Shown one piece after another: positions 29,042 through 31,344 of a stretch of 42,102 nucleotides of DNA. Every line of letters begins with the position of its first letter. Within the stretch, counting starts at the first letter, position 1. The stretch comes from Candidatus Sumerlaeota bacterium (lineage in GTDB: Bacteria > Bacillota > SLNR01), in assembly GCA_007132905.1 (NCBI GenBank), contig SLNR01000034.1:1-42102 (forward strand), given 5' to 3'. Both the position numbers and the translations under genes were made by a program. The notes under the pieces are model-generated. The model had not been told where the DNA came from, did not search any database, and saw only the letters and a list, made by a program, of their open reading frames with translations.

Positions 29042-29439
29042 ATGCCCGGCGCAAAGCGGTTAGTCGGCAGCGAAAAGAAGGGATAGGAAAACGGGGAAAA
29101 GATTCTACGAATGAGCAAATATGGGTAAAACAGTTGAAAAACGAGCCCGGAATTTTGCGAAGCAACTCTTTGCAGGAGAAGACGCTTTCTGTTACAAAGA
29201 GACCCTTCCTATACGGATCTTTTTCGCCCGGCGTTCTTGGAGGTTTGAAGCGGGCTACCCGTAAGTCAAAAATAGGGTTGTGGTGGGCAAAGAGAAAGAT
29301 TGTATATATTTGTATATGTCTAGAGGCAAACAATTTTGAAGTGACGGGCAGAATATGGTCAGTCTCGTTGCTAGTAAAAAGGCAAAACTAAGAAAGCGGT
29401 TATGGATACATGCACCGCTTTTAGAGGAGGAGGAGGAAA
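29042..29439 (+). other. Spacer between copB-type gene and deacetylase pair
   Basis: About 400 bp without a gene. It ends in a very strong GGAGGAGGAGGAAA ribosome site for the first deacetylase. The alternating TGTATATATTTGTATATG near 29297-29318 is a possible promoter element, but no box pair is convincing. Confidence 0.4.
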
Positions 29440-30306
29440 GTGGACAATGAAGAGGTAAAGTGGCCGGATCAGGCCCGATGTGCCGTGATGCTGACATTTG
29501 ATTTGGATGCAGAAATTACTTGGCTTAATGAATGCCGAAGCCATCCCCACGGGGAGCGTTTCATCAAGACACCGTCGCTGGGACAGTACGGGCCTTTAAG
29601 GGCTCTTCCCCGACTACTGGAGATTTTAAATAGGTATGAACTGCCGGCGACTTTTTTTGTGCCCGGCTGGGTAGCCGAAAACTATCCCCAAGAGTTTGTG
29701 AGCATAGCCGAAAAAGGGCATGAAATAGGACATCACGGCTATACCCATGAACGGTTTGTAGAGAAAAGCACACAAGAGCAGCGGGACATTATTGACAAAA
29801 GCCAGCGTATTTTCGAAAAATTGATCGGGAAGAAAGCGGTTGGTTATCGAACACCTTCGGGTGACTGGTCCCATGAAACACCGAAGATTCTTAACGAGCT
29901 GGGATTTTCTTTTTCCAGTTCCATGAGGGGGGACGACCGTCCTTATCGTACGATCATTGAAGGGAAAGAAACGGACCTCATCGAAATCCCCGCTCACTGG
30001 GAGCTTGATGATTATGTTCAGTTTGCCTACAGCTATTTCCCCGCCGAGCCGGTTGGGCAGGGAAGGATTTCAAGCCATGAACATGTCTACGATAACTACC
30101 GGAGAGAGTTTGATGGCTATCATCGGTTCGGACTTTGCTATGTATTGATGATGCATCCTCAGGTGATCGGCAAGCCCGGCCGGGCCGTTATGTTGGAGCA
30201 TTTGATTCAATATATGAAAAGCCGACAGGACGTGTGGTTTGCCACCGGAAGCGAGATTGCCGATTGGTGGCGGTCTCGTTATGAAGGAGGGAAGGCAGGA
30301 AAATGA
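29440..30306 (+). CDS. Polysaccharide deacetylase, HpPgdA-like (carbohydrate esterase 4 fold), copy 1
   Basis: This 288-residue protein matches the short cytoplasmic-type CE4 group of Helicobacter pylori PgdA and cyclic imide hydrolases. The FDLDAE motif gives D21 (expected catalytic base) and D23 (metal ligand); GHEIGHHGYTHE gives metal ligands H99 and H103; GYRTPSGDW and EIPAHWELDD line the pocket; and LMMHPQVIGKPGR supplies the C-terminal histidine H239, matching the IHP-x-x-x-GRP motif. No signal peptide or membrane segment is seen. Family members remove acetyl groups from peptidoglycan or hydrolyse cyclic imides, so the substrate is open. It starts with GTG after a very strong ribosome site. 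Its stop overlaps the next start by four bases (ATGA), so both are translationally coupled. Confidence 0.88.
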   Translation: MDNEEVKWPDQARCAVMLTFDLDAEITWLNECRSHPHGERFIKTPSLGQYGPLRALPRLLEILNRYELPATFFVPGWVAENYPQEFVSIAEKGHEIGHHGYTHERFVEKSTQEQRDIIDKSQRIFEKLIGKKAVGYRTPSGDWSHETPKILNELGFSFSSSMRGDDRPYRTIIEGKETDLIEIPAHWELDDYVQFAYSYFPAEPVGQGRISSHEHVYDNYRREFDGYHRFGLCYVLMMHPQVIGKPGRAVMLEHLIQYMKSRQDVWFATGSEIADWWRSRYEGGKAGK

Positions 30307-31142
30307 AAAGAGAGAAGATTGATTGGCCCAGCGGGGCTCGGTGCGCTTCGGTTTTGACTTTTAATTTGGACGCCGAATATGTTTGGAAAGGATTGGCACA
30401 AGACAGCGACCGTCGGCCCAAAACTCTATCCTTGGGCAAGTACGGTATGAAAAGAGGCCTTCATCGGGTCCTCCAGGCACTAAGAGAACGTTCTTTGACG
30501 GCTACCTTTTTTGTGCCGGGGGCAGCGGCGTTACAATATCGAAAGGAAATAACCGACATAGTTGAAGAAGGCCACGAAATTGGTCTTCACGGCTATGAAC
30601 ACGAGGATTTTAGCTGCTTGGATTACGATGAGATAAAAAGGTTATTAGAGGCAGGATGCGAAGCGCTCATAAAGACTACCGGGACGGCACCTGTGGGGTT
30701 TCGGGTTCCGGAAGGAGAGATGAATCAGCACCTCTATGAAGCGATGGCAGCGTCCGGTTTTCTCTATTCCTCTTCCATGCTGGGAGACGACAGACCTTAT
30801 CTTGTGCAAACAGAGAAGCAGAATAAAAAGATAGTGGAAATACCGGCTCCCTGGGAGCTTCACGACTTTTTGTATTTCGGGTTTAACTACACACCGGCTT
30901 TTCCCGCGGGGCAGGGGAGGATTGCCAATTACAGTCAGGTGTTGGGTATCTTTCGAGAGGAGTTTCGGGCCTATTACCGCTATGGGCTTTGTTATGTGCC
31001 TCAGTTTGATCCGCAAACCATCGGGACTCCGGGACGGATACCTTTGCTAGAAGAGATCATTAAGACCATAACCCATGCCGAAGGGACCTGGATAGGCAAG
31101 GGCTGCGAAATGGCTTCCTGGTGGCTTGAAAATCACAGATAG
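30303..31142 (+). CDS. HpPgdA-like polysaccharide deacetylase paralogue, possibly non-catalytic
   Basis: This 279-residue protein is a paralogue of the preceding gene with the same order of motifs. The metal ligands are kept: D23 in FNLDAE, H96 and H100 in GLHGYEHE. But the expected catalytic base is N21 rather than D, and the C-terminal catalytic histidine is replaced by D236 (QFDPQTIGTPGR where copy 1 has MMHPQVIGKPGR). GFRVPEGE and EIPAPWELHD keep the pocket shape. Both losses together suggest a changed reaction or a non-catalytic partner that pairs with copy 1. HpPgdA-type enzymes are known to assemble as oligomers, so a mixed complex is possible. The two genes overlap by four bases, so similar amounts are made. 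Confidence 0.85.
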   Translation: MKREKIDWPSGARCASVLTFNLDAEYVWKGLAQDSDRRPKTLSLGKYGMKRGLHRVLQALRERSLTATFFVPGAAALQYRKEITDIVEEGHEIGLHGYEHEDFSCLDYDEIKRLLEAGCEALIKTTGTAPVGFRVPEGEMNQHLYEAMAASGFLYSSSMLGDDRPYLVQTEKQNKKIVEIPAPWELHDFLYFGFNYTPAFPAGQGRIANYSQVLGIFREEFRAYYRYGLCYVPQFDPQTIGTPGRIPLLEEIIKTITHAEGTWIGKGCEMASWWLENHR

Positions 31143-31344
31143 AGGAAATGGTTTGCAGAGGGTACACAGTCTGTAAAAATGAGAATGCCCGGTGTATCTT
31201 ATTGACGCCACCGGGAAAAATGAGTTAAGGGTTTTGATACCTGCTTCAAAAAGACCGCCAGTAGAATGCAAGAAAAGAAACAGGGCGTAAAGGTTGCCCT
31301 CGTTTTTCAGACAGGAAGTTGTGTATGAAAATCTCTATGAAGGA

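Follow-up and report, generated by a model that had tools for sequence, protein, structure and literature searches.

The window, a stretch of 42,102 nucleotides from a Candidatus Sumerlaeota bacterium, carries two adjacent genes which code for related NodB-fold proteins; they and all features of the window described below are located on the forward strand. Copy 1 (29440..30306), termed A in the following, starts with GTG and, as read from the sequence, is preceded by a strong Shine-Dalgarno sequence (GGAGGAGGAGGA, 29426..29437). Copy 2 (30303..31142), termed B, is joined to copy 1 by an ATGA stop/start overlap (30303..30306) and has its own Shine-Dalgarno sequence AAGGAGGG (30284..30291), located within the end of copy 1 approximately 11 nt upstream of copy 2. 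Both reading frames are open over their full length. A possible intrinsic terminator lies 3' of copy 2 (31282..31300), but this is a consensus match only and the number of such matches is near chance expectation. The overlap suggests translational coupling; near equal synthesis of both proteins, as had been proposed in the first-pass annotation, does not follow from it since copy 2 has its own Shine-Dalgarno sequence. The pair stands by itself, with a P-type ATPase gene on one side and a chemotaxis receptor gene on the other, and is without the transporter and lyase neighbours found at other loci. A third, solitary paralogue with a canonical active site is encoded elsewhere in the genome (L035, 9868-10698, contig C28), flanked by a pair of amidohydrolase-like genes on one side and an acetamidase/formamidase-like gene on the other, all named from sequence reading; this context would fit a small amide or imide as substrate. 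The contamination of the assembly is stated as 6.28%, and a search for relatives gave genomes of the same phylum only, with no close relative among them.

Both proteins matched the PF01522 profile (92.5 bits for A and 70.2 bits for B, curated cut-off 23.1) and stayed far under the cut-off of 424.6 of the PuuE allantoinase model TIGR03212 (95.9 and 72.4 bits, respectively). A PHROGs search gave no match. The AlphaFold model of copy 2 (pLDDT 86.6, pTM 0.89) showed the NodB barrel fold and its best structural match in the PDB was 3rxz (TM ~0.9), which is also the nearest solved structure by sequence for both copies, followed by HpPgdA or PuuE relatives. For members of the HpPgdA/PuuE/HxnM fold group, either the substrate is a small molecule or none has been proven (PMC3084791, PMC9304392, PMC10967932): PuuE is an allantoinase (PMC10967932) and HxnM, which has the NodB fold, is a cyclic imidase (PMC9304392). 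The public annotation of both genes as "polysaccharide deacetylase" is probably wrong on the substrate in both cases and, for the second gene, probably wrong on catalysis as well.

The active-site residues of HpPgdA are Asp12, Asp14, His86, His90 and His247 (PMC3084791), in agreement with the first-pass annotation. Copy 1 has the intact set, with the base D21 and the metal ligand D23 (codons 21-23, D21, L22 and D23, 29500..29508), H99, H103 and H239 (30154..30156), the last of which was found opposite a histidine of HpPgdA consistent with His247. The two copies share 43% identity, and in their pairwise alignment D23, H99 and H103 of copy 1 pair with D23, H96 and H100 of copy 2, that is, all metal ligands are present in copy 2. 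D21 aligns with N21 (codons 21-23, N21, L22 and D23, 30363..30371) and H239 with D236 (31008..31010), gap-free and unambiguous. Direct alignment with the HpPgdA chain 3qbu placed N21 of copy 2 opposite Asp12 and D23 opposite Asp14. These alignments agree with the earlier description of copy 2 as a protein that has kept its metal ligands and lost both predicted acid/base residues, and N21 and D236 do sit at the catalytic positions.

Copy 2 as a lone query against genome contigs gave no match; an alignment query was used instead. The scan of reference genomes revealed 80 loci, 13 of which, together with one locus from a phylum search, are adjacent pairs like that of the window. All in all, adjacent A-B pairs on the same strand were found at approximately 35 loci from three phyla, Bacillota, Actinomycetota and Pseudomonadota, a count in which some Burkholderia plasmid records may duplicate species already included. 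In every pair the canonical A comes first and the altered B second. Pairs are present in Syntrophomonas, Lutispora, Dysosmobacter, Bacilliculturomica and Streptomyces and, further, in Paraburkholderia, Burkholderia, Caballeronia, Rhodoferax, Rhodospirillales, Paracoccus, Ensifer, Rhizobium and Ochrobactrum, with up to three pairs per genome (three in Bacilliculturomica, two in Streptomyces iranensis). The distribution is patchy, the majority of relatives in each group being without the pair. B was encoded in 11 of 200 sampled genomes of the Burkholderiaceae group and adjoined A in all 11; among all B proteins located in these sampled collections, none was found without an adjacent A.

To compare the active sites, the residues at positions 21/23/99/103/239 were written as a five-letter code. 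All A proteins have DDHHH except for one with HDHHH, and of the solitary homologues 85 out of 88 have DDHHH, two HDHHH and one, of the PuuE type, NEHWH. DDHHH was found in no B protein. The state of copy 2, NDHHD, recurs outside the window strain in B proteins of Syntrophomonas, Lutispora and one Bacilliculturomica locus. In these genera the pair is kept as neighbours with the same substitutions, and the earlier view that the loss of both residues is unlikely by drift alone is upheld by these orthologues. Other B proteins have NNLHD, NNLQD, NNLND, NDRCD, NDRLE, NDHHT, DDHHQ, LDHFR, GDHTR, INHFR or LSHIH, those of the Burkholderiaceae have DNSCH, and in B of S. flaveus the HxxxH stretch is wholly missing. 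The least altered state found, DDHHQ, belongs to Streptomyces iranensis (L177, 6843-8614) and makes a helpful example of site loss in its early phase. A histidine at the base position of an otherwise intact site (HDHHH) was seen at L143 (G628) and at L119 and L124 (G188); one of these proteins is an A partner whose B has MDHHT. Judged from the sequences compared, what is conserved is the pair and not any altered active site, and the retention of the metal ligands in copy 2 probably marks one step of a loss of catalysis that is general among the B proteins.

In a tree calculated from 102 proteins, a single branch set apart each of the three groups, A, B and solitary proteins, from the rest. The grouping persisted in a tree that included 21 pairs and was made without the five site columns, with support of 100/99 for the A clade and 98/96 for the B clade; one ancient tandem duplication before spread among phyla would be the simplest reading. 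The distance matrices of A and B were correlated (r 0.78, with 0 of 5000 permutations as high), which mostly reflects joint travel of the two genes, partly by simple co-transfer. In nine close comparisons, which did not include the B of the window, dN/dS of B amounted to 0.05-0.26 and was similar to that of A, the values for A being approximate because some A sequences carry extra upstream codons; B is therefore maintained. Further, both members of the pair have a loop with the motif PxGQxRI (in copy 2 residues 198-207, PAFPAGQGRI, 30894..30923), which in most solitary homologues is shorter by four or five residues. In the models the loop belongs to the regions of lowest confidence, which would be compatible with, though no proof of, a segment that is ordered by a partner.

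Taken together, B is probably a non-catalytic partner subunit of A. This reading, put forward already in the first-pass annotation, gains strong support, of a comparative kind, from the always-adjacent pair in three phyla, the single duplication, the purifying selection and the broken site in every B; we infer that B is inactive and that both proteins form a mixed A-B oligomer, presumably a tetramer. A single metal-dependent amidohydrolase of the cytoplasm would then be built from A and B as its two subunits. In A, D23, H99 and H103 would hold the metal, D21 would act as base and H239 would position the water or protonate the leaving group. B would be a pseudo-subunit which has retained the fold and the loop common with A but lost catalysis, and it may replace identical neighbours in a tetramer of the PuuE/HpPgdA type and be needed for stability, substrate binding or activation of A. 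HpPgdA and PuuE are tetramers, and the arms of HpPgdA embrace the neighbouring subunit (PMC3084791). An AlphaFold model of a fused A-B protein, made by read-through of the stop codon in a related pair (L117) and from a thin, unpaired alignment, had well folded halves with a pTM of 0.52, but their relative placement was not confident. Two points argue for caution: copy 2 keeps all metal ligands and its Asn21 by itself would be compatible with activity, by analogy to the active allantoinase PuuE, and adjacency and co-inheritance could also be expected of two enzymes that act independently in the same pathway.

The latter point leads to the question of whether B could be an active hydrolase with altered, PuuE-like chemistry that acts on a cyclic imide or in a second step of the pathway and requires no complex with A. 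PuuE, a real allantoinase, has N, E and W at the positions of D21, D23 and H103 (PMC10967932), a cyclic imidase, HxnM, occurs within the NodB fold (PMC9304392) and copy 2 has a complete set of metal ligands. However, PuuE keeps the equivalent of H239, which is absent from copy 2 and from most B proteins outside the Burkholderiaceae, and the B proteins of other pairs have lost metal ligands in many combinations, up to the missing HxxxH in S. flaveus, so that no single alternative site is conserved. This disfavours a specific new reaction and favours a role free of catalysis. The proposal of a different reaction for copy 2, also made earlier, is weakened by the ligand losses, with the Asn of the working PuuE at the D21 position still in its favour, and we consider it unlikely. 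B might instead have turned the old active-site pocket into a binding site for a small molecule and serve as a separate sensor, storage or substrate delivery protein. Its fold and several residues (R134, P181, D188 and the PxGQxRI loop) are kept while the substitutions in the pocket differ by lineage, as such a protein could have them, but B has no regulatory domain and a separate binding protein offers no reason why B should always adjoin A or why both should share a loop which is missing in most solitary homologues; this possibility appears quite improbable. Finally, the long branch of the window B (~0.94-1.02) and its two lost catalytic residues could point to a decaying duplicate retained by chance. 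This was rejected as highly improbable, since orthologues have the same pattern, the frame is intact and of full length, B is under purifying selection elsewhere and the pairs are conserved in three phyla.

What a partner-dependent enzyme of A and B might act on can be approached from the gene neighbourhood at other loci. There, the pair is accompanied by an ArgH-family lyase and by a transporter, which is an AGCS symporter or an ABC transporter for amino acids, together with either an MmgE/PrpD protein or an Asp/Glu/hydantoin racemase. The MmgE/PrpD gene adjoining the pair has iminodisuccinate epimerase (IDS-epimerase) as closest PDB match. In Ensifer, Rhizobium and Ochrobactrum, the genes for the transporter, A, B, the MmgE/PrpD protein and the lyase follow one another in this sequence; the Bacilliculturomica loci add fumarase and malic enzyme and the Paracoccus locus adds arginase and ornithine cyclodeaminase. 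In the window genome, one match to an ArgH-type C-terminal domain and three matches to Asp/Glu racemases were found, none of them on the contig of the window. In Lutispora (L180, 6024-11279) and at one Bacilliculturomica locus (L184), A and B lie inside the transporter cluster, between permease and ATPase genes. From these neighbours a pathway for N-substituted aspartate can be guessed: an N-substituted aspartate derivative would be imported, hydrolysed by A/B and epimerised, and the product would be split by the ArgH-type lyase to fumarate and an amine, perhaps arginine. The substrate of the pair would, speculatively, be an imide, lactam or amide of this kind, perhaps cyclised or derived from argininosuccinate. 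Argininosuccinic anhydride is a guess only, for which no bacterial paper was found in a literature search. The full proposal is that of a hitherto undescribed NodB-fold enzyme with one live and one dead subunit, which would catalyse the first cytoplasmic reaction of a catabolic operon spread over three phyla, namely ring opening or deacylation of an N-substituted aspartate in cyclised or amidated form, such as a cyclic derivative of argininosuccinate; it is tentative and has the weight of probability against it. On a plasmid of Sulfitobacter faviae (L194, 4457-8730) a solitary homologue lies beside genes of an isoaspartyl peptidase/asparaginase and the creatininase family, a hint at cyclic or amidated aspartate-type substrates.

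The combination of MmgE/PrpD and ArgH-family neighbours resembles iminodisuccinate degradation, which uses an IDS-epimerase of the MmgE/PrpD family and a C-N lyase; we know of no CE4-type step in that pathway. The operon context offers a testable pathway for the fold group of HpPgdA (HP0310, 3qbu) and 3rxz from M. smegmatis. Both have the fold, the metal site and the base/acid residues in common with copy 1 and are thought to act on small molecules, with no settled substrate, but in neither case has a broken-site protein been described as paired partner. Within the same fold group, the PuuE allantoinase (3cl6) and HxnM act on substrates that are small and cyclic. The base position of PuuE is, like that of copy 2, occupied by Asn, but PuuE keeps the C-terminal His and has lost a metal ligand, the reverse of copy 2. 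The CE4 pseudoenzymes BA0150 (4m1b) and BA3943 (7bkf) have, like B, the NodB fold and a broken site, but neither constant adjacency to an intact paralogue nor a subunit role beside one is described for them. Neither a paired NodB pseudo-subunit nor this operon was found in searches of open-access papers, and the known kinds, NodB fold, CE4 pseudoenzymes and prozymes, were not found described in combination. In trypanosomatids, prozymes of AdoMetDC (PMC5201418) and deoxyhypusine synthase (PMC3663545) are dead paralogues shown experimentally to partner the live enzyme. Likewise, B is a broken-site paralogue of an intact enzyme, and every B located in the sampled collections is beside an intact A. 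The prozymes differ in being eukaryotic, of unrelated folds and not encoded in an operon, and the complex of A and B is a putative one. If true, the conserved pair of a live and a dead protein would be a bacterial case, within a single fold, of an enzyme dependent on an inactive paralogue, and its natural B variants would represent many stages of site loss.
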